DNA of 64,000 nucleotides. Origin: Streptomyces ardesiacus (GTDB lineage: Bacteria; Actinomycetota; Actinomycetes; Streptomycetales; Streptomycetaceae). A program made the position numbers and the translations under genes. The stretch is taken from positions 186,001 through 250,000 of the forward strand of contig NZ_BEWC01000009.1 in NCBI RefSeq assembly GCF_003112575.1. Direction: 5' to 3'. This document shows positions 42,380 through 53,126 of the stretch, piece after piece. The number at the start of each line of letters is the position of its first letter. The first letter of the stretch is position 1. Under the pieces are notes generated by a model. That model worked only from the letters and a program-made list of their open reading frames with translations. It had not been told where the DNA came from and did no database searches.

Positions 42380-42510
42380 CTCCGTCACACGGCCCTCTCC
42401 CCCCACCAGGCCCTATGCTGACCGGCGGCTCCGGAGCCACCCCTTCCGGCGCCGCCGGCCGCGACCACCGTCGCGCCCCCCCGCACCACCAGAAACGAGC
42501 ACCACCCGCC

Positions 42511-43947
42511 ATGCCCGTCTCCCGCGTCAAGTCCCCCCACCTGCTGGTCGCCGAATCCGGCGCCGACCGCGAAGGCCACGGCCTGAAGCGCACGATGGGC
42601 CTGTTCCAGCTCGTCTGCTTCGGCGTCGGCGCGATCGTCGGTACCGGCATCTTCGTCGGCCTGTCCGACTCCGTCGCCGAGGCCGGGCCGGCCGTCGTCG
42701 TCTCCTTCGTCCTGGCCGCGATCACCTGCGTGTTCACCGCGTTCTCCTTCGCCGAACTGGGCGGCGCGATCCCGGTCTCCGGGTCCTCGTACTCCTTCGC
42801 CTACGCCGGACTCGGCGAACGCACCGCCTTCCTCGTCGGCTGGTGCCTGCTCCTGGAGTACGGCGTGTCGGTCTCGGCGGTCGCCGTCGGCTGGAGCCAG
42901 TACGTCAACGAACTGCTCGACAGCGTCCTCGGCGTCCAGCTCCCGCACGCGCTCTCCGCGGGCCCCGGCGACGGCGGCGCCGTCAACCTCCCCGCGGTGA
43001 TCGTCATCGCGCTCGCCTCGGTCCTGCTGGTGCGCGGCGTGCGCGAGAGCGCCCGCGCCACGGCCGCCATGGCCGTCCTCAAGCTCGCCGTCCTGCTCGC
43101 CTTCTGCGCCATCGGCTTCTACGCCTTCCAGGACGGCAACCTGACCCCGTTCTCCCCGGCGGGGCTCGGCGGCATCGGCGCCGGCACCACGGCCGCCTTC
43201 TTCTCGTACATCGGCTTCGACGCGATCACCACGGCCGGCGAGGAGGCCAAGAACCCGCGCCGGGACATCCCCGTCGCCATCCTGGTCTGCATCGGCGTGG
43301 TCACCCTGCTCTACTGCGCGGTCGCCGTCGCCGCGATCGGCGCCGTCGGCGGCGACCAGGTCGGCAACCGGCCCGCCGCGCTCTCCTACGTCGTCGACCG
43401 GGTCACCGGCTCGGCGATCGGCGGCGGCGTGGTCGCCTTCGGCGCGGTCGTCGCCATCGCCTCGGTGGTGCTCGCCGTGATGTACGGCCAGACCCGCATC
43501 CTGATGTCGATGTCCCGGGACGGTCTGATCCCCCGGGTCTTCGAGAAGGTCTCCCCGCGCACCGCCACCCCCGTCGCCGGCACCCTGATCGTCGGCGTGG
43601 TCTTCGCCCTCCCGGCCGCCTTCGCCCCGCTCGACGCGGTGGTCAACCTGTGCACCATCGGCACCCTCGCCACGATGGCCGCCGTCAACCTCTCGGTGCT
43701 CACCCTGCGCCGGCGCGAGCCGGACCTCGCCCGGTCCTTCCGGGTCCCGCTGTACCCGGCGACGCCCCTGCTCGGGATCGGCTTCTGCCTGTACCTGATG
43801 TACGAGACGGGCGGCGCCACCTGGCTGCAGTTCGCGGTGTTCCTCGCGGTGGGCCTGCTGGTGTACACGGCCTACGGGCGCCGGCACTCCCGCCTGGCCG
43901 CCGGCGTCAGCGCGGCCGACGCTGAGCGGGCACCGCGGGGAGCCTGA
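42511..43947 (+). CDS. Amino acid permease (APC family, cationic amino acid type)
   Basis: 478 residues, 12 or more membrane helices. Starts with a cytoplasmic LKRTMGLFQLVCFGVGAIVGTGIFVGL, the consensus of APC helix 1 that binds the substrate, and FFSYIGFDAITTAGEEAKNPRRDIP, typical of the CAT (cationic amino acid) branch. Position after arcA-argF suggests arginine uptake or arginine/ornithine exchange. ATG 42511 has only a weak GAG upstream; earlier open frame is not family-like. Confidence 0.9.
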   Translation: MPVSRVKSPHLLVAESGADREGHGLKRTMGLFQLVCFGVGAIVGTGIFVGLSDSVAEAGPAVVVSFVLAAITCVFTAFSFAELGGAIPVSGSSYSFAYAGLGERTAFLVGWCLLLEYGVSVSAVAVGWSQYVNELLDSVLGVQLPHALSAGPGDGGAVNLPAVIVIALASVLLVRGVRESARATAAMAVLKLAVLLAFCAIGFYAFQDGNLTPFSPAGLGGIGAGTTAAFFSYIGFDAITTAGEEAKNPRRDIPVAILVCIGVVTLLYCAVAVAAIGAVGGDQVGNRPAALSYVVDRVTGSAIGGGVVAFGAVVAIASVVLAVMYGQTRILMSMSRDGLIPRVFEKVSPRTATPVAGTLIVGVVFALPAAFAPLDAVVNLCTIGTLATMAAVNLSVLTLRRREPDLARSFRVPLYPATPLLGIGFCLYLMYETGGATWLQFAVFLAVGLLVYTAYGRRHSRLAAGVSAADAERAPRGA

Positions 43948-44347
43948 ACCAGACCGCCTTGCCCGCCCCCGTGGACCGGTGACCGCAGGAGGAGCTGAGG
44001 GCGCGGATCAGCAGCAGACCGCGTCCGCCCTCGCGCCACGGGTCGGGCGGTTCCACGTCCGGCCGGGTGAGGTCGGCGGGCGGCGACGGGTCCGGGTCGT
44101 GCACCTCGACCTGGCAGCCGGTCGGCCGCAGCTCCACCACCAGCTCGATCGGCGTCCGGCCGACGGAGGTGTGCTCCACGGCGTTGGCGACCAGTTCCGC
44201 CGTGAGCAGCTCCGCGGTGTCGCCGTCGGCCGTGTGATCCAGCTCGGCCAGGGCGTTGCGCACCAGGGCACGCGCCACCGGCACCGCCGCGGCGGAGTGC
44301 GGCAGTGCGATGCGCCAGGAGGCGGGTGCGGGGGAGTGATCGTGCAC
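43907..44347 (-). CDS. Anti-sigma-type ATP-binding protein (HATPase_c)
   Basis: 146 residues. GHKL ATPase motifs: LLTAELVANAVEHTS (N box), VEVHDPDPSPP (G1) and GGRGLLLIRALSSSCG (G2). Probable serine kinase acting on an anti-sigma antagonist; no partner nearby. GTG start at 44347. Its last 41 bases overlap the convergent permease gene. Confidence 0.87.
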   Translation of the reverse strand: MHDHSPAPASWRIALPHSAAAVPVARALVRNALAELDHTADGDTAELLTAELVANAVEHTSVGRTPIELVVELRPTGCQVEVHDPDPSPPADLTRPDVEPPDPWREGGRGLLLIRALSSSCGHRSTGAGKAVWFRLPAVPAQRRPR

Positions 44348-44491: not shown

Positions 44492-44509
44492 CCGTGACGA
44501 CAGTCACGG
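44492..44509 (+). promoter_or_regulatory. Palindromic operator candidate, copy A
   Basis: CCGTGACGACAGTCACGG is a perfect 7-bp inverted repeat (CCGTGAC/GTCACGG) with a GACA centre, 22 bases before the enoyl-CoA hydratase start. Its core 13-mer GTGACGACAGTCA recurs exactly at 51406-51418 in the divergent CoA-ligase/acyl-CoA dehydrogenase promoter, so both operons may answer to one regulator, most simply the PaaX protein encoded between them. Confidence 0.7.
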
Positions 44510-44531
44510 AACGGTGATAACTTCGAGTGTC

Positions 44532-45359
44532 ATGAGTCCCTTCACCGGCTCCGCCGCCCCCACCCCCGACTGGCGGCACCTGCGCGTCGAGACCACCGAC
44601 GGCGTCGCCACCGTCACCCTCGCCCGCCCCGACAAGCTCAACGCCCTCACCTTCGAGGCCTACGCCGACCTGCGCGACCTGCTCGCCGAGCTGTCCCGCC
44701 GGCGGTCCGTGCGGGCCCTGGTGCTGGCCGGCGAGGGGCGCGGCTTCTGCTCCGGCGGCGACGTGGACGAGATCATCGGCGCCACCCTCTCCATGGACAC
44801 CGCGACGCTGCTCGACTTCAACCGGATGACGGGCCAGGTGGTGCGGGCGGTACGGGAGTGCCCGTTCCCGGTGATCGCCGCGCTGCACGGGGTCGCCGCC
44901 GGCGCGGGCGCCGTCCTCGCCCTCGCCGCCGACTTCCGCGTCGCCGACCCCTCGGCCCGCTTCGCCTTCCTCTTCACCCGCGTCGGCCTCTCCGGCGGCG
45001 ACATGGGGGCCGCCTACCTGCTGCCCCGCGTCGTCGGCCTCGGCCACGCCACCCGTCTGCTGATGCTCGGCGAGCCGGTGCGCGCCCCGGAGGCCGAGCG
45101 GATCGGCCTGATCAGCGAACTGACGGAGGAGGGCCGAGCCGACGAGGCCGCCCAGGCCCTCGCCCGCCGCCTGGCCGACGGCCCGGCCCTGGCCCACGCC
45201 CAGACCAAGGCCCTCCTCACGGCGGAACTGGACATGCCGCTGGCGGCGGCGGTGGAACTGGACGCGTCCACGCAGGCCCTGCTGATGACGGGCGAGGACT
45301 ACGCGGAATTCCACGCGGCCTTCACGGAAAAACGGCCCCCGAAGTGGCAAGGGAGGTAG
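44532..45359 (+). CDS. Enoyl-CoA hydratase/isomerase family protein
   Basis: 275 residues of the crotonase fold: VTLARPDKLNALTFEAY, GRGFCSGGDVDEI (oxyanion hole) and AALHGVAAGAGAVLALAADFRVAD. Acts on a CoA-bound ring-opened or ring-reduced intermediate, by context of the aryl-CoA pathway downstream. ATG 44532; four bases separate its stop from the monooxygenase-reductase start, so it is one operon. Behind operator copy A. Confidence 0.92.
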   Translation: MSPFTGSAAPTPDWRHLRVETTDGVATVTLARPDKLNALTFEAYADLRDLLAELSRRRSVRALVLAGEGRGFCSGGDVDEIIGATLSMDTATLLDFNRMTGQVVRAVRECPFPVIAALHGVAAGAGAVLALAADFRVADPSARFAFLFTRVGLSGGDMGAAYLLPRVVGLGHATRLLMLGEPVRAPEAERIGLISELTEEGRADEAAQALARRLADGPALAHAQTKALLTAELDMPLAAAVELDASTQALLMTGEDYAEFHAAFTEKRPPKWQGR

Positions 45360-45363
45360 GACG

Positions 45364-47820
45364 ATGCCGTCGACGCGGGGGAGTGTGCCGGACCCGGGGG
45401 CGCCGGGAGGTGCCGATCAGCGGCTCCGCCGCGGGGCGCGGGCACCCGCACCGCACCCGCACGCGCCGGACGACCGCGGCCGCCCCCACCGCATCGCGAT
45501 CGTCGGCGGGGGCCCCGGCGGCCTCTACACCGCCGCCCTCCTCAAACGCCTCGCCCCCGACCGCGAGGTCACCGTCTACGAGCGCAACGCCCCCGACGAC
45601 ACCTTCGGCTTCGGCGTGGTCCTCTCCGACGAAACCCTCGGCGGCATCGAACACGCCGACCCCGCCGTCCACGAGGCCCTCAAGGCGCACTTCGTCCGCT
45701 GGGACGACATCGACATCGTCCACCGGGGCATCCGCCACACCTCAGGAGGACACCGCTTCGCCGCCCTCGGCCGTCGCCGCCTCCTCGGCATCCTCCACGA
45801 CCGCTGCCGCGACCTCGGCGTGGACCTCCGCTTCCGCACCGAGGCCCCGCCCTCCGACCGGCTCGCGCGGACCCACGACCTCGTCGTCGCCGCCGACGGC
45901 GTGCACAGCGCCGTCCGCGAGGCCCACCGCGACGTCTTCCGCCCGCACGTCACCTACCACCGCTGCCGCTACATCTGGCTCGCCGCCGACTTCGCCTTCG
46001 ACGCCTTCCGCTTCGAGATCGCCGAGACCGAGCACGGCGTGATGCAACTGCACGGCTACCCCTACTCCCGCCCGTCGCCCGACCAGCAGCCGTCAACGAG
46101 GCCCCGCGGGCCGCAGCACGAAGCCGCGTCGACCGTCATCGTCGAGATGCGCGAAGAGGTCTGGCGGGCGGCCGGCTTCGACGCGCTCGACGAAACGGAA
46201 TCCACCGCCCGGTGCGCCAAGATCTTCGCCGACGCCCTCGGCGGGCGGCCGCTGCGCTCCAACAACTCGGCGTGGACCACCTTCCGCACGGTCGTCAACG
46301 CACGCTGGTCGCACGGCAACGTCGTCCTGCTCGGCGACGCCGCCCACACCGCGCACTTCTCCATCGGTTCCGGCACCAAACTCGCCGTGGAGGACGCCCT
46401 CGCGCTCGCCGCCTGCCTGGAGGAGCGGCCCACCCTCCGGGAGGCGCTCGGCGCGTACGAGGAGGAACGGCGCCCCGTCGTCGCCTCCACGCAGCGGGCG
46501 GCCCGGGCCAGCCTGGAGTGGTTCGAGGACCTGGGCCGGTACGTCGGCCAGCCGCCGCGCCGGTTCGCCTTCAACCTGCTCACCCGCAGCCGCCGGGTCA
46601 CCCACGGCAACCTGCGGCTGCGCGACGCCGGCTTCACCGACTCCGTCGAGCGCGAGTTCGGCTGCCCGCCCGGCACGCCCCCGATGTTCACACCGTTGCC
46701 ACTGCGCGGCCTGACCCTGCGCAACCGCGTCGTCGTCTCCGCGATGGACATGTACTCGGCCGACGACGGGGTCCCCGGCGACTTCCACCTGGTCCACCTG
46801 GGCGCCCGGGCCCTGGGCGGTGCCGCCCTGGTCATGACCGAGATGGTGTGCGTCAGCGCCGAGGGCCGCATCACGCCCGGCTGCACGGGCCTCTACACCG
46901 GCCGCCAGGGCGGGGCATGGCGGCGGATCACGGACTTCGTGCACGACAGCGCGCCCGGCACCGCGATCGGCGTGCAGCTCGGGCACAGCGGCCGCAAGGG
47001 CTCGACCCGGCTGATGTGGGAGGGCATGGACGAACCGCTGCCCGACGGCAACTGGCCCCTCGTGGCCCCCTCCCCGCTGCCGTACCGGCCCGGCAGCCAG
47101 ACCCCGCGCGAGCTGACCCGGGCCCAACTGACCGACGTACGGCAGCAGTTCCGGGCCGCGGCCGAGCGGGCCGCCCACGCCGGGTTCGACCTGCTCGAAC
47201 TGCACTGTGCCCACGGCTACCTGCTCTCCGGCTTCCTCTCCCCGCTCACCAACCACCGCACCGACGCCTACGGCGGCTCACTGGAGCGACGCCTGCGCTT
47301 CCCGCTGGAGGTCTTCGACGCCGTACGCGAGGTGTGGCCCGCCGAGCGGCCCATGACCGTACGCGTCTCCGCCACCGACTGGGCCGAGGGCGGCACCAGC
47401 GGAGAGGATGCGGTCCGCATCGCCCGGGCCTTCGCCGCGCACGGCGCCGACGCCATCGACGTGTCCACGGGGCAGGTCGTCGCCGAGGAGCGGCCGGAGT
47501 TCGGCCGGTCGTACCAGACGCCGTACGCGGACCGCATCCGGCACGAAGCGGGCGTCCCGGTGATCGCGGTCGGCGCCATCTCCTCCTGGGACGACGTCAA
47601 CTCGCTGATCCTGGCCGGACGTGCCGATCTGTGCGCGCTGGGCCGCCCGCACCTCTACGACCCGCAGTGGACGCTGCACGCCGCCGCCGAACAGGGCTAC
47701 GACGGACCGGGCGCCCCCTGGCCGGCGCCGTACCGGGCGGGCAGCCGTCCGCCGCGCACCGGACGCACCGACGCCCCCAGGCCGAGGCTGACCCTGCACG
47801 GCCCGCGTCAGGACGTGTAG
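45364..47820 (+). CDS. Bifunctional salicylyl-CoA 5-hydroxylase / 2-aminobenzoyl-CoA monooxygenase-reductase type
   Basis: 818 residues, fusion of two flavoproteins. Residues about 40-430 are a group A FAD monooxygenase (RIAIVGGGPGGLYTAALLKRL, DLVVAADGVHSAVR, NVVLLGDAAHTAHFSIGSG). About 440-790 are an Old Yellow Enzyme (PMFTPLPLRGLTLRNRVVVSAM, AAHAGFDLLELHCAHGYLLSGFLSPLTNHR). This layout is known for SdgC-type salicylyl-CoA hydroxylases and for the Azoarcus 2-aminobenzoyl-CoA monooxygenase/reductase, which hydroxylates then reduces the ring. The nearby CoA ligase, acyl-CoA dehydrogenase and RidA favour an anthranilate route. GGAGG precedes the ATG. Confidence 0.92.
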   Translation: MPSTRGSVPDPGAPGGADQRLRRGARAPAPHPHAPDDRGRPHRIAIVGGGPGGLYTAALLKRLAPDREVTVYERNAPDDTFGFGVVLSDETLGGIEHADPAVHEALKAHFVRWDDIDIVHRGIRHTSGGHRFAALGRRRLLGILHDRCRDLGVDLRFRTEAPPSDRLARTHDLVVAADGVHSAVREAHRDVFRPHVTYHRCRYIWLAADFAFDAFRFEIAETEHGVMQLHGYPYSRPSPDQQPSTRPRGPQHEAASTVIVEMREEVWRAAGFDALDETESTARCAKIFADALGGRPLRSNNSAWTTFRTVVNARWSHGNVVLLGDAAHTAHFSIGSGTKLAVEDALALAACLEERPTLREALGAYEEERRPVVASTQRAARASLEWFEDLGRYVGQPPRRFAFNLLTRSRRVTHGNLRLRDAGFTDSVEREFGCPPGTPPMFTPLPLRGLTLRNRVVVSAMDMYSADDGVPGDFHLVHLGARALGGAALVMTEMVCVSAEGRITPGCTGLYTGRQGGAWRRITDFVHDSAPGTAIGVQLGHSGRKGSTRLMWEGMDEPLPDGNWPLVAPSPLPYRPGSQTPRELTRAQLTDVRQQFRAAAERAAHAGFDLLELHCAHGYLLSGFLSPLTNHRTDAYGGSLERRLRFPLEVFDAVREVWPAERPMTVRVSATDWAEGGTSGEDAVRIARAFAAHGADAIDVSTGQVVAEERPEFGRSYQTPYADRIRHEAGVPVIAVGAISSWDDVNSLILAGRADLCALGRPHLYDPQWTLHAAAEQGYDGPGAPWPAPYRAGSRPPRTGRTDAPRPRLTLHGPRQDV

Positions 47821-48719
47821 CCCCAGGCCGCGCACATCGGGCGCAGCCGCTCGGGGATCTCGTCCTGCGGGGGCAGCGCCCGCCCCGGCTGGACGGTGCC
47901 GGTGCGGATGTTCTCGCGCCAGTCGCCCAGGCCCCTGACCAGCTCGGCGTTGCCCTTCTTGCCGTAGTGCAGCATCTGCGGCGCGTAGTCGACGCCGAGG
48001 TACGCGCACAGGCGGCGCATCTCGCGCTCGGGGTCGGCGGTGATGTCCTCGTAGCGCACGGTGAAGCCGTCGGCGTCCGCCGCGCGGGCCTCCTCGACGG
48101 CCGTCACGTACCGCAGCACGTCCGTGACGGCCCTCTCGTGCGGCCGCTTGACGGGGTCGCTTTCGTGCCAGGAACGGGCGATCGACGCGGGGTGGCGCAG
48201 CAGGAAGACGAAGCGGGCGTCGGGCCAGCAGTCCCTCAGGCGCCGGTACATGTACGCGTTGGCCGGTGTCTTCTCGACCACGAAGTCCTTGCCGGACCGG
48301 ATGAGTTCACGGTGCAGGACGCGGTCCCACAGCAGGTGCTCCAGGTCGCCCCGGCGCAGGCCGAGTTCGCCCATCGCCCGCTCGGAGTGCCAGGTGGCGC
48401 AGGCGACCTCCAGCTTGCCGATGTGCAGTTCGTGCGGGGCGTGCAGCCGCGGGTGGGCGCCCGTCATCATCCGCAGCAGGGTGGAGCCGGAGCGGATGGA
48501 GGAGATGATGAAGACGGGCCGCCGCAGCAGCCGTTCGGCCGGCTGTTCCTCGGCCGTCGGACATCGGTAGGCGGCCGTCGGCCGCGCCGCGGGCCCGGCG
48601 GCGGGGGACTTCGCGGCGGGCCTCCCCTTCGGTTTCCCCTTGGCCGCCTGGGGCGCTCTGCGGACCTGCAGGCCGGTGGTGACGGTGAGGGCACGGTTCA
48701 AGTTGCGCGCGAGACTCAT
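47808..48719 (-). CDS. Sulfotransferase family protein
   Basis: 303 residues. PAPS-binding 5-prime-phosphosulfate loop FIISSIRSGSTLLRMM and 3-prime-phosphate region FVFLLRHPASIARSW; the rest matches the Sulfotransfer_1/3 fold. A basic Lys/Arg/Pro-rich N-terminus of about 60 residues precedes the domain. Transfers sulfate from PAPS to an unknown acceptor. It interrupts the aryl-CoA island on the opposite strand, overlapping the fused flavoprotein by 13 bases, and need not belong to that pathway. Confidence 0.88.
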   Translation of the reverse strand: MSLARNLNRALTVTTGLQVRRAPQAAKGKPKGRPAAKSPAAGPAARPTAAYRCPTAEEQPAERLLRRPVFIISSIRSGSTLLRMMTGAHPRLHAPHELHIGKLEVACATWHSERAMGELGLRRGDLEHLLWDRVLHRELIRSGKDFVVEKTPANAYMYRRLRDCWPDARFVFLLRHPASIARSWHESDPVKRPHERAVTDVLRYVTAVEEARAADADGFTVRYEDITADPEREMRRLCAYLGVDYAPQMLHYGKKGNAELVRGLGDWRENIRTGTVQPGRALPPQDEIPERLRPMCAAWGYTS

Positions 48720-48802
48720 GCGTCCGCACGGTAGGAGGGAAACCTGAGAAGAGGATCTGAGCGGGCTGAGGGTTCACTGATCCCGTGCGGATGTGACGCG
48801 AC

Positions 48803-49660
48803 TCACTGCTCGGGCGGTGCGGCCGGTCCCGGGAGGGGGCCCAGGGCCGCGTAGTGCGCGCCCGCGTCGCGCAGCCGCTCGTGCAGCGCCCGGAAGACCG
48901 CCGCCGAGCGCGTGCCGGGCCAGTCCCCGGGCAGCAGCCCGGCGGGCAGCCCCGGGTCCGTGTAGGGCAGGTGCCGCCAGGAGTCCAGGGCGAGGAGATA
49001 GTCGCGGTAGGCCTCCTCGGGCGGGGTGTCCGTCCGCCGTTCCCAGGCGTGCAGGACGCGCGCGTGCCGGTCGAGGAACGCCTCGTGCTCCTTGGCGATC
49101 GCGGCCAGGTCCCACCAGCGGGCCACCGCCTCGGCGGTCGGCGTGAAACCCAGGTGCTCCCCGCGGAAGAAGTCCACGTAGGAGTCCAGGCCGAGGCGGC
49201 CCAGCGCGTGCCGGGTCTCCTCGTACAGCCGGGCCGGGGCGATCCACACGCCGGGGGCCGCGGTGCCGAAGCCGAGACCGGCCAGGCGCGAGCGCAGGAC
49301 GTGCCGCTTCTGCCGCTCCGACTCGGGCACGGAGAACACGGCGAGCACCCAGCCCTCGTCCTCGTGGGGCGCGGTGGCGTAGACGCGCCGGTCACCGTCC
49401 TCCAGCAACTGGCGGGCCTCGTCGGAGAGTCCGTAACCGGCCGCGCCCTCGGCCGTACGGGCGGGCAGCAGCAGCCCGCGCCGCTTCAGCCGGGACACCG
49501 ACGAGCGCACGGAGGGCGCGTCCACCCCCACCGCCGCCAGCAGCCGGATCAGCTCGGCGACGGGCACCGGGCCCGGCGCGAAACGGCCGTAGGCGCCGTA
49601 GAGCGTGACGATGAGGGACCGCGGGGCGTGCTGTACGTGCTGGTCGGACACGTTGATCAT
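48803..49660 (-). CDS. PaaX-family transcriptional repressor
   Basis: 285 residues: N-terminal winged HTH (PVAELIRLLAAVGVDAPSVRSSVSRLKRRGLL), central PaaX domain (GWVLAVFSVPESERQKRHVLRSRLAGLGFG) and C-terminal PaaX_C. PaaX proteins repress aromatic acid catabolism and are released by the aryl-CoA made by the ligase. Here it follows an aryl-CoA ligase gene by 15 bases, so the regulator is co-transcribed with the maker of its likely inducer. Its probable operators are at 44492 and 51405. Confidence 0.93.
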   Translation of the reverse strand: MINVSDQHVQHAPRSLIVTLYGAYGRFAPGPVPVAELIRLLAAVGVDAPSVRSSVSRLKRRGLLLPARTAEGAAGYGLSDEARQLLEDGDRRVYATAPHEDEGWVLAVFSVPESERQKRHVLRSRLAGLGFGTAAPGVWIAPARLYEETRHALGRLGLDSYVDFFRGEHLGFTPTAEAVARWWDLAAIAKEHEAFLDRHARVLHAWERRTDTPPEEAYRDYLLALDSWRHLPYTDPGLPAGLLPGDWPGTRSAAVFRALHERLRDAGAHYAALGPLPGPAAPPEQ

Positions 49661-49675
49661 CTTATGTCGTCGGCG

Positions 49676-51352
49676 TCAGGCCCGGCCGCCCAGGGGATCC
49701 GGCCGGGCCCCGGGAGGGGCGGCGGGGGCGGCGTCGGCGGGATCCAGGAGCCGGTGGCGCTGGAGCTTGCCGGTCGCCGTGCGCGGCAGCGCGTCCAGGA
49801 AGACGATCTCCCGCGGACACTTGTACGGCGCCAGCTCCGACCGCAGGAACGCGCGCAGCGCGTCGGCGTCCCGGCCGGCCCCCTCGCGCAGCACGGCGTG
49901 CGCCACCACCACCTGCCCCCGGCGCCCGTCGGGCCGGCCCACCACCGCCGCCTCCACGACGTCGGGATGGCGCAGCAGCGCGTCCTCCACCTCCGGACCG
50001 GCGATGTTGTACCCGGCGGAGATGATCATGTCGTCGGCACGGGCCACGTACCGGAAGTACCCGTCGGGCTCGCGGACGTAGGTGTCCCCGGTGACGTTCC
50101 AGCCGTCGCGCACGTACTCGCGCTGGCGCGGGTCGGCGAGGTAGCGGCACCCGACCGGCCCGCGCACCGCCAGCAGCCCCGGCTCCCCGTCGGGCACCGG
50201 CCTGCCCCGTTCGTCCTGCACGCGTGCCTGCCACCCCGGCACCGGTACACCCGTCGTGCCGGGCCTGATGGCGTCGTCCGCCGCCGAGACGAAGATGTGC
50301 AGCAGCTCGGTGGCGCCGATGCCGTTGATCACGCGCAGGCCGGTGCGCTCGTACCAGGCGCGCCAGGTGGCCGCGGGCAGGTTCTCGCCCGCCGAGACGC
50401 AGCGCCGGAGGCTGCCCAGGTCGTAGCCGTCCAGCTCGTCGAGCATCGCGCGGTAGGCGGTCGGCGCGGTGAACAGCACCGACACCCGGTGCTCGGCGAC
50501 GGCCGGCAGGAGCTGCCGGGGGCCCGCCCGTTCGAGCAGCAGGGCGCTCGCACCGGCCCGCAGGGGGAAGACCACGAGCCCGCCGAGCCCGAAGGTGAAG
50601 CCGAGCGGCGGACTGCCCGCGAAGAGGTCGTCGGAGCGCGGCCGCAGCACGTGCTCGGAGAAGGTGTCCGCGATCGCCAGCACGTCGCGGTGGAAGTGCA
50701 TGCAGCCCTTGGGCCGCCCGGTGGTGCCGGACGTGAACGCGATCAGCGCCACGTCGTCGGCGGCCGTGTCGACGGCCCGGTACGGCGTGCCGGGCGCCGC
50801 ACCCGACGCCGTACGGCGGCGCAGGTCGTCCGGCGCGTCCCCGCCGAACGGCGTGATCGCGAGGCCCGCGACGTCCGCCCGGGCGAGGTCGTCGACGGAC
50901 CGGACGTCGCACAGCGCGTGCCGCACCCGGGCGGTCTCGCAGATCGCGCGCAGCTCGTGCGGGCGCTGCTGGGCGAGCACCGTGACCGCCACCGCGCCCG
51001 CCTTCAGCACCGCCAGCCAGCACGCGGCCAGCCACGGGGTGGTGGGGCCGCGCAGCAGCACCCGGTTGCCCGGGACGACACCGAGGTCGCCGGTCAGCAC
51101 GTGCGCGATCCGGTCGACGCGCTCGCGGAGCCCGCCGTAGGTCCAGGTGTCCCCGGACACGGTGCGGAAGGCGGGGCGGTCGTCGGGCGGGCCGGCGAGC
51201 AGCTCGGCGGCGCAGTTCAGCCGGGCCGGGTAGCGCAGCCGGGGCAGCTCGAAGAGGAGCTGCGGCCACTGCTCGGGGGGCGGCAGGTGGTCGCGCGCGA
51301 AGGTGTCGACATGGGCGGAGCGGTGCGGGTCCGCGTGGCGCGCATCGGCCAT
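49676..51352 (-). CDS. Aryl-CoA ligase, 2-aminobenzoate/benzoate type
   Basis: 558 residues of the ANL superfamily. AMP-binding motif AFTSGTTGRPKGCMHFHRD, adenylation motif INGIGATELLHIF and YVRDGWNVTGDTY, catalytic Lys near the end in RTATGKLQRHRL. The spread fits benzoate/2-aminobenzoate-CoA ligases: it activates an aromatic acid with ATP to the CoA thioester, the entry reaction of the pathway. Divergent from the acyl-CoA dehydrogenase, with operator copy B between. A 15-base gap precedes paaX. Confidence 0.92.
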   Translation of the reverse strand: MADARHADPHRSAHVDTFARDHLPPPEQWPQLLFELPRLRYPARLNCAAELLAGPPDDRPAFRTVSGDTWTYGGLRERVDRIAHVLTGDLGVVPGNRVLLRGPTTPWLAACWLAVLKAGAVAVTVLAQQRPHELRAICETARVRHALCDVRSVDDLARADVAGLAITPFGGDAPDDLRRRTASGAAPGTPYRAVDTAADDVALIAFTSGTTGRPKGCMHFHRDVLAIADTFSEHVLRPRSDDLFAGSPPLGFTFGLGGLVVFPLRAGASALLLERAGPRQLLPAVAEHRVSVLFTAPTAYRAMLDELDGYDLGSLRRCVSAGENLPAATWRAWYERTGLRVINGIGATELLHIFVSAADDAIRPGTTGVPVPGWQARVQDERGRPVPDGEPGLLAVRGPVGCRYLADPRQREYVRDGWNVTGDTYVREPDGYFRYVARADDMIISAGYNIAGPEVEDALLRHPDVVEAAVVGRPDGRRGQVVVAHAVLREGAGRDADALRAFLRSELAPYKCPREIVFLDALPRTATGKLQRHRLLDPADAAPAAPPGARPDPLGGRA

Positions 51353-51388
51353 GGCGGTTCGCCCCCTTTGTCGTGGTGGGCTCGCGCC

Positions 51389-51422
51389 ACGAGCGTATCG
51401 TGTCGGTGACGACAGTCAACGG
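51389..51422. promoter_or_regulatory. Operator candidate, copy B, in the divergent ligase/dehydrogenase promoter
   Basis: GGTGACGACAGTCAACGG (51405-51422) contains the 13-mer GTGACGACAGTCA found in copy A, with TGAC/GTCA arms about GACA. Two further small inverted repeats overlap it (ACGA...TCGT 51389-51401 and TGTCG...CGACA 51401-51414). The site lies about 35-70 bases from the ligase start and 60-90 from the dehydrogenase start. Confidence 0.65.
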
Positions 51423-51480
51423 GGCGCGATAGCCTCGGCCGTGGACCCGGAGGGCAGGACGGCAGGGGAAGGGACCGGCG

Positions 51481-52731
51481 ATGACCGCATTCTCGCTCGA
51501 ACCGGCACACGTCACCTGGTGCGAAGAGCTGCGCGCCCTCGCCGCCCAACGGCTGCGCCCGCTCGCGGAGAAGGGCGAGCCGGGCCGCGTCAACCGTGCC
51601 CTGGTCGCCGAACTGGGCGCCCTCGGCCTGCTGTCCCGCCTGTTCACGTCCGGCGCGCTCGACCTGTGCCTGATGCGCGAGTCCCTCGCCCGTGCCTGCA
51701 CGGAGGCCGAGACCGCCCTCGCCCTCCAGGGCCTCGGCGCCCACCCCGTGCACACCCACGGCACCGAGGCCCAGCGCGCCCGCTGGCTCCCCCGCGTGAG
51801 CGACGGCACCGCGGTCGCCGCCTTCGCCCTCAGCGAGCCCGGCGCGGGCTCGGACGCGGCGGCGCTGTCCCTGCGCGCGGAACCGGACCCCCGGCCGGGC
51901 GGCCACCCCTCCGCCTGGCGGCTCACCGGGGAGAAGTGCTGGATCTCCAACGCCCCCGAGGCCGACTTCTACACCGTGTTCGCCCGCACCACCCCCGGCG
52001 CCGGCGCCCGCGGCGTCACCGCCTTCCTCGTGCCCGCCGACCGTCCCGGCCTCACCGGCAGCGCGCTCGACATGCTCTCGCCGCACCCCGTCGGCGCCCT
52101 CTCCTTCGACGCCGTGCCCGTCACCGCGGACGACGTCCTGGGCGCACCGGACGAGGGCTTCCGGGTGGCCATGGGCACCCTCAACCTGTTCCGCCCCAGC
52201 GTCGGCGCCTTCGCCGTCGGCATGGCGCAGGCCGCCCTCGACGCGACCCTCGCGCACACCACCGTCCGCGACGCCTTCGGCGGCACGCTGCGCGACCTCC
52301 AGGCCGTCTCCCACCAGGTCGCCGAGATGGCCCTGCGCACCGAGGCGGCCCGCCTGATGGTGTACGCGGCGGCGACGGCGTACGACGCGGGCGCCCCGGA
52401 CGTCCCGAAGCGCGCCGCGATGGCGAAGCTCCTCGCCACCGAGACCGCCCAGTACGTCGTCGACCGCGCCGTCCAGCTCCACGGCGCCCGCGCCCTGCGC
52501 CGCGGCCACCTCCTCGAACACCTCTACCGCGAGGTGCGCGCCCCCCGCATCTACGAGGGCGCGAGCGAGGTGCAGCGCGGCATCGTCGCCAAGGAGCTGT
52601 ACCGCACGTACCACCCCGACGCCACGACGACAGAGACGACAGAGACGACAGAGACGACAGAGACGGCCGAGACGGCCGAGACGACCGAGACGGCCGAGAC
52701 GACCGAGACGACCGAGGAGACCGGAGCATGA
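51481..52731 (+). CDS. Acyl-CoA dehydrogenase with a repetitive C-terminal tail
   Basis: 416 residues. FAD-dependent dehydrogenase of CoA thioesters: AFALSEPGAGSDAAALS, WISNAPEADFYTVFART, the hallmark QLHGARALRRGHLLEHLYREVR and YEGASEVQRGIVAKELY, which holds the catalytic-base Glu region. Residues 383-412 are ten copies of T-(T/A)-E, beyond the normal family end at about 382. Likely oxidises a CoA-bound intermediate of the aryl-CoA pathway. The stop overlaps the RidA start (ATGA). Confidence 0.92.
   Translation: MTAFSLEPAHVTWCEELRALAAQRLRPLAEKGEPGRVNRALVAELGALGLLSRLFTSGALDLCLMRESLARACTEAETALALQGLGAHPVHTHGTEAQRARWLPRVSDGTAVAAFALSEPGAGSDAAALSLRAEPDPRPGGHPSAWRLTGEKCWISNAPEADFYTVFARTTPGAGARGVTAFLVPADRPGLTGSALDMLSPHPVGALSFDAVPVTADDVLGAPDEGFRVAMGTLNLFRPSVGAFAVGMAQAALDATLAHTTVRDAFGGTLRDLQAVSHQVAEMALRTEAARLMVYAAATAYDAGAPDVPKRAAMAKLLATETAQYVVDRAVQLHGARALRRGHLLEHLYREVRAPRIYEGASEVQRGIVAKELYRTYHPDATTTETTETTETTETAETAETTETAETTETTEETGA
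52627..52716 (+). repeat. Ten tandem 9-bp repeats in the dehydrogenase tail
   Basis: Units ACG-RCM-GAG (ACGACAGAG four times, then ACGGCCGAG and ACGACCGAG mixed) run in frame and encode (T-T/A-E)10. The first four are identical, which suggests recent slippage. The number probably varies between strains without breaking the frame. Confidence 0.95.
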
Positions 52732-53126
52732 CCGCCGAACGGATCAACCCGCCCGAACTGTCCCCGCCCACCGGTTTCTCCCACGCCGTCGTCGCCACCG
52801 GCACCCGCGTCGTCCTCCTCGCCGGGCAGACCGCCCTCGACAGCGACGGCGCGATCACCGGCGACACCCTCCCCGCCCAGTTCGAACGGGCCCTCACCAA
52901 CCTCCTCACCGCCTTGCGCGCCGCCGGGGGCACCCCCGCCGACCTGGCCCGCGTCACCGTCTACGCCACCGACGTCGCCGCCTACCGCACCCACGCCGCC
53001 GACCTGGGCCGCACCTGGCGCGAGCTGGCCGGCCGCGACTACCCGGCGATGGCGGTCGTGGAGGTCGTACGGCTCTGGGACGAACGGGCGCTGGTGGAGC
53101 TCGACGGCTTCGCCGTACTGCCGTAG
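52728..53126 (+). CDS. RidA-family enamine/imine deaminase
   Basis: 132 residues of the YjgF/RidA family: FSHAVVATGTRVVLLAGQTALDSDGAI, QFERALTNLLTALRAAGGTPADLARVTVYATD, and WRELAGRDYPAMAVVEVVRLWDERALVELDGFAV. The usual Arg near the end of strand 6, typical of deaminating RidA, appears shifted (VVRLWDE), so activity cannot be taken for granted. Coupled to the dehydrogenase stop. In an anthranilate-CoA pathway it would hydrolyse the enamine left after ring reduction. Confidence 0.88.
   Translation: MTAERINPPELSPPTGFSHAVVATGTRVVLLAGQTALDSDGAITGDTLPAQFERALTNLLTALRAAGGTPADLARVTVYATDVAAYRTHAADLGRTWRELAGRDYPAMAVVEVVRLWDERALVELDGFAVLP

Follow-up and report, generated by a model that had tools for sequence, protein, structure and literature searches.

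A Streptomyces gene island with a PaaX-type repressor that very probably allows degradation of anthranilate via CoA thioesters

Known systems and the locus under study

The aerobic degradation of anthranilate (2-aminobenzoate) via coenzyme A (CoA) thioesters is already known, and the subject of this report is an island of genes in Streptomyces ardesiacus that appears to encode a form of it. The DNA analysed, referred to as the window, is a stretch of 64,000 nucleotides (nt; GCF_003112575.1, NZ_BEWC01000009.1 positions 186,001-250,000), in which the island occupies 44492-53126. The form found here is a variant of the pathway with PaaX that extends across Streptomyces, together with a rule that separates it from a gentisate branch, and two enzymes with residues that do not match the roles assigned to them.

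The abstract of Schuehle et al. 2001 is said to list a 'putative translation inhibitor' in Azoarcus evansii, which is taken here to be a Rid protein, and the same work reportedly describes a MarR-type regulator and a transport protein in one operon, which is duplicated. Salicylate has a comparable route, in which SdgC acts as a salicylyl-CoA 5-hydroxylase on the way to gentisate. Of the regulators on the Arthrobacter plasmid pAL1, MeqR2 reportedly binds anthraniloyl-CoA. The pAL1 ligase has been shown to act on anthranilate, making anthraniloyl-CoA, the two PaaX-related regulators of the plasmid are said to control quinaldine degradation, and its host Arthrobacter Rue61a can use anthranilate for growth but neither salicylate nor gentisate (PMC3534580). 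In a strain of Cupriavidus a 2-aminobenzoyl-CoA cluster has been reported, from proteomic and genetic work, to be vital for anthranilate breakdown (PMC6221969). No paper on the Streptomyces cluster was found in the open-licence literature.

It is argued here that the island encodes a PaaX-repressed aerobic anthranilate pathway via CoA thioesters, with tryptophan breakdown as its main supply, a reading that is given a probability of about 0.8. The gene set, the operators, the intact two-domain enzyme and the conservation are read directly from sequence, the catalytic steps are predicted from them.

Genes of the island

A preliminary description of this DNA had listed a ligase, a fused monooxygenase-reductase, a hydratase, a dehydrogenase, RidA and PaaX, and reading of open reading frames and profiles finds these genes arranged as described. 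They form three blocks, with crotonase and fused enzyme at 44532-47820 (plus strand), PaaX and ligase at 48803-51352 (minus strand), and dehydrogenase and Rid at 51481-53126 (plus strand).

44532-45359, plus strand: crotonase-fold enzyme of an Asp type (NF006107 over cut-off), putative ring-opening hydrolase or isomerase
45364-47820, plus strand: fused FAD monooxygenase and OYE-type reductase (NF006101, 1219 bits against a cut-off of 1078; PF01494 and PF00724), putative 2-aminobenzoyl-CoA monooxygenase/reductase
48803-49660, minus strand: PaaX-family repressor (PF07848, PF20803 and PF08223 all over cut-off)
49676-51352, minus strand: aryl-CoA ligase, benzoate-CoA-ligase-like (TIGR02262 316.9 bits, below the subfamily cut-off of 375), putative anthranilate-CoA ligase
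51481-52731, plus strand: acyl-CoA dehydrogenase (acyl-CoA dehydrogenase Pfam domains over cut-off), predicted to catalyse the first beta-oxidation step after ring opening
52728-53126, plus strand: Rid-fold protein (PF01042 over cut-off; Met108 at the place of RidA Arg105), putative CoA-thioester enamine deaminase

The start of the Rid gene overlaps the stop of the dehydrogenase gene by ATGA. The PaaX protein scores 137 bits against the phenylacetate-specific model, which has a cut-off of 264.6, and the nearest solved relatives of the dehydrogenase are 5idu and 5jsc. The C-terminus of the dehydrogenase is extended by a tail rich in Thr and Glu, encoded by about 10 tandem copies of a 9-base unit at 52626-52716.

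Conservation across Streptomyces

Conservation was assessed in a sample of 101 genomes of the genus, with a fused enzyme counted as window-type when it has at least 75% identity over at least 700 residues, to which 3 copies that are split or cut by a contig end were added. On this count the window-type enzyme is carried by 84/101 genomes (81 by the full criterion and the 3 split or cut copies), a 65-67% identical relative is found alone in 8, and neither is found in 9. From 40 stretches fetched around fused-enzyme genes 35 (L044-L078) are window-type, and as far as these extend all have the order crotonase, fused enzyme, reversed PaaX and ligase, then dehydrogenase, with Rid next in most. In a tree of 143 rows made by a quick method, the window enzyme falls within a Streptomyces clade of 69 with support of 100, and PaaX is present in 65/69 close loci, with some of the copies cut short. 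The arrangement varies in places, with the block of Rid, dehydrogenase, ligase and PaaX on the opposite side in L165, and with the usual island replaced in L232 (Streptomyces G021) by a 65% relative together with crotonase, dehydrogenase, Rid and a short-chain dehydrogenase.

Anthranilate or salicylate as the substrate

The name of NF006101, bifunctional salicylyl-CoA 5-hydroxylase/oxidoreductase, points to a salicylate route, in which the ligase would make salicylyl-CoA, the fused enzyme would convert this to gentisyl-CoA, and gentisate would then be cleaved. The two substrates can be compared through the company the fused enzyme keeps, and 143 loci (L041-L088, L141-L220, L222-L236) were classified by the genes lying within 9 kb of it. 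Among the 115 loci with flanks of at least 6 kb, 93 have Rid but no gentisate dioxygenase, 14 have the reverse, none has both and 8 have neither (Fisher P = 9e-13, a value that is not corrected for kinship, the loci being related and the counts not independent events). The eight with neither are L062, L065, L067, L068, L190, L152, L178 and L216, of which the last three have a Rid match at the cut end or slightly past 9 kb. The 28 loci with shorter flanks comprise 16 with Rid only, 1 with gentisate dioxygenase only and 11 with neither. It had been proposed beforehand that Rid is a step not needed for salicylate, and this agrees with its occurrence within 9 kb in 0/15 loci of the gentisate type.

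A second line of evidence comes from the reductase half of the fused enzyme. The roles of three residues in its active site, a His-His-Tyr triad (H614, H617 and Y619 in the window enzyme), are known from OYE work, and the triad is intact in 108/108 loci of the Rid type and 19/19 unassigned loci, against 0/15 of the gentisate type, where it reads QHH in 12 and QHQ, HHF and HHH in 1 each; the count leaves out 1/109 Rid-type loci, in which the best enzyme piece fell under the filter of more than 600 residues. By this criterion the reductase half of the window enzyme is catalytically equipped. The gentisate-type enzymes form one clade of 14 rows with support of 100, the fifteenth, L194, being placed elsewhere. 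It seems that the gentisate-type enzymes lost ring reduction, which fits with a gentisate route that would not need it, and the window enzyme retains the triad. The reductase domain itself persists near gentisate dioxygenase, despite the altered triad, in L081-L083, L192, L194, L198, L207 and L222-L229.

The salicylate route can also be weighed within genomes. The genome of the window has one gene like gentisate dioxygenase, its sole match, which is below the family cut-off and on another contig (G000:C1:857812-858861), where weak matches to FAD monooxygenases lie at a distance of about 1.5 to 11 kb from it; 56/84 of the Streptomyces genomes with a window-type enzyme have no full-length match of this kind. 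The ligase was tried as a discriminator of substrate and failed. Among solved structures it scores highest with benzoate-CoA ligase 2v7b (259 bits) and anthranilate-CoA ligase 4wv3 (251 bits), and with 59-61% identity to gentisate-type ligases, against 54% to the assayed pAL1 ligase, it is slightly closer to the former, in favour of salicylate. With gentisate dioxygenase absent within 9 kb in all 93 Rid-type loci with full flanks and the reductase triad intact, salicylate was rejected as the principal reading and is regarded as highly improbable. Elsewhere in the genome an unfused relative of the monooxygenase half (L004 1237-2757, 381 bits) lies beside an apparent aldo/keto reductase gene.

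Two lower pathways are found, that of the window and that of pAL1, the latter with a thioesterase and a cupin, mostly with a hydrolase of the FAH type, in 25 loci that all have Rid. Streptomyces with the pAL1 type mostly are without the window type (7/8, against 17/101 overall, P = 8e-6 with no correction for the tree), and all 11 sampled Streptomyces with the gentisate type also carry the window type. We read this as the pAL1 type replacing the window type as a route for anthranilate, with the gentisate type coexisting as a route for salicylate. Taken together the comparison favours anthranilate over salicylate as the substrate, and the island very probably lets the Streptomyces that carry it degrade anthranilate via attachment to CoA.

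Probable supply of anthranilate from tryptophan

The source of ANTHRANILATE is close to universal in the sample, with kynureninase in 99/101 genomes and tryptophan 2,3-dioxygenase (TDO) in 100/101, and in the genome of the window the two genes are adjacent. The large subunit of anthranilate dioxygenase was found over cut-off in 0/101 genomes, with weaker family matches in 67, and the genome of the window has no match to it at all. Where no such fused enzyme is found (9 genomes), kynureninase is still present in 8 and TDO in 9; the kynurenine genes, being near universal, thus do not track the island. TDO or kynureninase lies within 9 kb of the fused enzyme in 6/143 loci, none of them gentisate-type, a count that for TDO was made with a Ruegeria query. 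The preliminary description had proposed a pathway of the 2-aminobenzoyl-CoA type, and the exclusion between Rid and gentisate dioxygenase, the intact triad and the presence of TDO and kynureninase in the genome together support it.

The same chemistry might have as its substrate a different ortho-amino aryl acid or an anthranilate with a substituent, such as a hydroxylated, halogenated or methylated one from secondary metabolism, as many anthranilate derivatives are made by Streptomyces and aryl-CoA ligases are often broad (PMC8388817). The distribution makes this improbable, as a fused enzyme in 84/101 genomes, along with the near universal kynureninase and TDO, is more in keeping with a housekeeping substrate than with one restricted to particular strains.

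The Rid protein

The preliminary description had RidA removing the amino group from the ring-reduced enamine. A Rid protein is present and coupled to the dehydrogenase, as it had said, but the residue that predicts the activity is missing, and one subclade has no Rid in its island. That residue is Arg105 of RidA, a published predictor of deaminase activity that is said to bind the carboxylate of the substrate (PMC5619798, PMC4433059). In alignments to solved Rids that bear the Arg, Met108 of the window protein falls on it. The position holds Met in 105, Val in 2, Leu in 2, Thr in 1 and Arg in 0 of the 110 Rids of such clusters, and the active-site Glu (Glu124) is kept in 110/110. An AlphaFold2 model (pLDDT 96) has the RidA fold with a TM score of about 0.85 to RidA structures. 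The loss of the Arg is not special to the cluster, because 8/10 other Rids of the genome are also without it, the Arg being seen by eye in L126 and L131. The window Rid thus lies outside the Arg105 deaminase class, and a deaminase-like action may still belong to it.

Among 59 window-type loci with flanks of at least 7 kb Rid is found within 9 kb in 54 and not in L062, L065, L067, L068 and L190, which group together as a small clade in the 143-row tree. Longer stretches of four of these (L251-L254) have no Rid match in about 9 to 11 kb past the dehydrogenase, and L190 has none in the 1.9 kb beyond it. The four genomes each have a single Rid elsewhere (L257-L260) that is 59-65% identical and has Met at the key place, and two control genomes with an island Rid (85% and 77%) have no second Rid above 43%. 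These relocated genes were considered as members of the regulon and dropped, as no TGAC-N4-GTCA occurs in the four 3.4-kb loci. We read this as a relocation of Rid in the subclade, in which the protein was retained and the shared operator was not.

Alternatively, Rid might have no catalytic part in the pathway, with spontaneous hydrolysis of the enamine and Rid serving as a chaperone, a pocket protein for CoA esters or a regulator. The absence of Arg105 from all 110 cluster Rids is consistent with this, since Arg-less subfamilies are predicted to have other functions, as are the islands of the one subclade without Rid, and the A. evansii enzyme yields a product that is acid-unstable and has been reported to undergo hydrolytic deamination (PMC3534580, citing Langkau). 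Such a role would have to be reconciled with the occurrence of Rid within 9 kb in 25/25 pAL1-type loci, as well as in nearly all window-type loci and in no gentisate-type locus, with the Met-type Rid found elsewhere in each of the four exceptions of five that were searched, and with the invariance of the second active-site residue, Glu. It is a real possibility, but a doubtful one.

The crotonase

Enoyl-CoA hydratase has a catalytic pair of glutamates, Glu144 and Glu164, and in the window crotonase their places are taken by Val128 and Phe148. Glu is found there in 0/82 sequences read and Asp157 in 82/82, so that the label 'hydratase', which the preliminary description had used, is wrong at the level of residues. 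A paralogue in the same genome, L237, has both hydratase glutamates. A near-identical relative with a solved structure, 3g64 (567 bits), which is presumably from S. coelicolor, is named just 'putative enoyl-CoA hydratase'. BadI, a 2-ketocyclohexanecarboxyl-CoA hydrolase, opens a beta-keto ring, and we infer from the chemistry that the window crotonase may be a ring-opening hydrolase of the BadI kind. Neither Rid nor the crotonase can be filed as a standard enzyme, because Arg105 and the hydratase glutamates are missing.

Operators and predicted promoters

The earlier claim that the same 13-mer lies before both rightward operons as a shared operator is supported. The two sites, and the promoters predicted around them, are as follows.

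44494-44506, plus strand: operator 1, GTGACGACAGTCA, exact, with the core TGAC-N4-GTCA at 44495-44506, upstream of the crotonase and fused-enzyme operon
51406-51418, plus strand: operator 2, GTGACGACAGTCA, exact, between the divergent ligase-PaaX and dehydrogenase-Rid units
44494-44523, plus strand: predicted promoter 1 (crotonase and fused enzyme), GTGACG 44494-44499, 18 nt, TAACTT 44518-44523, with TAnnnT at this offset in 36/36
51392-51419, minus strand: predicted ligase-PaaX promoter, TTGACT 51419-51414, 16 nt, TACGCT 51397-51392, with TTGACT in 35/35 and TAnnnT in 35/35
51406-51435, plus strand: predicted dehydrogenase-Rid promoter, GTGACG 51406-51411, 18 nt, TAGCCT 51430-51435

A genome search for the 13-mer, which the preliminary description had suggested, gives 2 forward and 0 reverse matches in 7,849,994 bases, with 0 for a reversed-pattern control, and the window has no copy beyond the two operators. 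Across 35 other Streptomyces loci (653,281 bases) RTGACGRNRGTCA has 68 matches, at least 67 of them at the two operator sites, against 2 for the reversed control. A site is found in 35/35 crotonase upstream regions and in 34/34 of the ligase-dehydrogenase intergenic regions obtained (L067 yielded none), and with the window included the shared operator is conserved at 36/36 and 35/35 sites. Mismatches to the 13-mer on the crotonase side number 0 in 12, 1 in 16, 2 in 7 and 3 in 1 (n=36), and in the intergenic region 0 in 17, 1 in 12 and 2 in 6 (n=35). As in a PaaX-type regulon, the island has a repressor with the three PaaX domains and a conserved operator ahead of the genes that it would control.

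A wider regulon was sought with the loosened pattern RTGACGNNNGTCA, which gives 34 forward and 38 reverse matches (72) against 5 and 5 for the control, and was dropped as unspecific. The kynurenine operon was likewise not retained as a member, there being no TGAC-N4-GTCA in 13 kb around it. Among pAL1-type loci the operator is found at no more than one mismatch in 19/25, a figure that has no control and includes likely irrelevant sites (the second site in L043 and the one in L201), and it is given no weight.

We infer that the operator consists of the -35 boxes themselves, in which case PaaX would block three promoters from two sites. The dehydrogenase side is the weakest of the three, with GTGACG or ATGACG, 18 nt and TAnnnT kept in just 19/35. 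A strict sigma-70 scan of the region detected no promoter, so that the boxes are taken entirely from cross-species conservation, and an inverted-repeat search around the operators, at the settings used, gave no arms centred on them.

Neighbouring genes

47808-48719, minus strand: sulfotransferase, between the fused enzyme and PaaX

This gene was absent from the earlier gene list. It was considered as a part of the pathway and rejected, with a counterpart in just 3/69 close loci; the gap at this place is also longer in several other loci. Upstream of the island an amino-acid permease and an ATPase-domain gene (42415-44347) are conserved neighbours in many Streptomyces loci, the ATPase-domain gene starting about 150 bases from operator 1 and pointing away from the island.

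The proposed pathway

TDO and kynureninase would supply anthranilate, from which the ligase would make anthraniloyl-CoA. The fused enzyme would then hydroxylate C5 and hydrogenate the ring to give 2-amino-5-oxocyclohex-1-ene-1-carbonyl-CoA, and Rid is proposed to accelerate the hydrolysis of this enamine to 2,5-dioxocyclohexane-1-carbonyl-CoA. It is possible that the Rid pocket lost its carboxylate-binding Arg because the carboxyl of this substrate is a thioester, with none left free. The Asp-type crotonase would open the beta-keto ring in the fashion of BadI, giving 4-oxopimeloyl-CoA, and the dehydrogenase would begin beta-oxidation, with hydroxyacyl-CoA dehydrogenase and thiolase coming from elsewhere. 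PaaX on TGAC-N4-GTCA would cover the -35 region of the three promoters until released by an aryl-CoA, probably anthraniloyl-CoA, and thus one ligand could open all units. CoA esters of C7H7NO3 and C7H8O4 have been found in Arthrobacter Rue61a on anthranilate only (PMC3534580), and the C7H8O4 ester matches what the proposed Rid step predicts.

A number of observations weigh against this pathway. A plasmid-free mutant of Rue61a still grows on anthranilate via chromosomal paralogues, so that growth is no proof for the plasmid copy, and anthraniloyl-CoA was not seen in oxoquinaldine-grown Arthrobacter cells (PMC3534580). A short-chain dehydrogenase, which proteobacterial clusters usually have next to the fused enzyme, occurs in 1/69 close Streptomyces loci, and none was found among eight scanned proteins of the island and its end; it is not counted here as defining for a 2-aminobenzoyl-CoA pathway, as pAL1 has none annotated there. 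No assay of these Streptomyces genes, of their substrate or of the PaaX ligand was found in the literature consulted. On the same side stand, from the sections above, the kinship of the loci, the ligase identities, a Rid without Arg105 in a genome where such loss is common, the five islands without Rid, the relocated Rid genes and the kynurenine operon without an operator, the weak dehydrogenase promoter and the empty sigma-70 scan.

A further-reaching proposal joins several of these points. It holds that there are two unrecognised catalytic types, a Met-type Rid whose substrate is an enamine CoA thioester and a crotonase of the Asp type that opens a 1,4-diketone ring, that the reductase decayed in gentisate lineages, and that the island is the default outlet for tryptophan carbon in Streptomyces under operators overlapping three promoters. 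This is put forward tentatively, as something possible that is on balance not expected to hold in full. If true, three residues would suffice to tell the substrate, and many database entries named 'salicylyl-CoA 5-hydroxylases' would have to be renamed.

If the anthranilate pathway itself is right, an outlet dedicated to anthranilate and independent of a ring-cleaving dioxygenase is common to most Streptomyces, which is of importance as anthranilate is a hub linking tryptophan and many antibiotics, and the common annotation of the key enzyme with salicylate is misleading. The exclusion between Rid and gentisate dioxygenase, along with the state of the triad, provides a cheap sequence rule for separating the two substrates, and the removal of the amino group and the opening of the ring become steps that are directly testable.

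Comparison with known systems

The window Rid shares the fold and the conserved Glu of the RidA imine deaminases and 2-aminomuconate deaminase, but has Met in place of Arg105. The SdgC route is alike in that an aryl-CoA ligase is followed by FAD-dependent 5-hydroxylation, and 15 loci combine a related fused enzyme with a nearby gentisate dioxygenase; these differ in having gentisate dioxygenase, altered reductase residues and no Rid.

On the megaplasmid of Ruegeria pomeroyi DSS-3 (L088) a fused enzyme, crotonase, acyl-CoA dehydrogenase, ligase and Rid lie next to TDO, although Ruegeria has a MarR regulator, a short-chain dehydrogenase and a cupin, and its fused enzyme is 52% identical. In another Cupriavidus (L204) the fused enzyme likewise has genes for crotonase, dehydrogenase, ligase and Rid in its vicinity. 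The 2-aminobenzoate pathway of Azoarcus evansii shares with the window the ligase, the fused monooxygenase/reductase and the beta-oxidation enzymes (PMC4539516), and the window differs in having PaaX and two operators and in having no short-chain dehydrogenase.

PaaX control together with RidA, said beforehand to seem little described for Streptomyces, has a precedent as a combination, as pAL1 of Arthrobacter Rue61a (L041) already joins PaaX-type regulators, RidA, a ligase (54% identical) and a fused enzyme (64% identical), and has a TGACGNNCGTCA-type site upstream of PaaX. The difference lies in the lower pathway, for which pAL1 has a thioesterase, a cupin and an FAH-type hydrolase, whereas the window has a crotonase and an acyl-CoA dehydrogenase.

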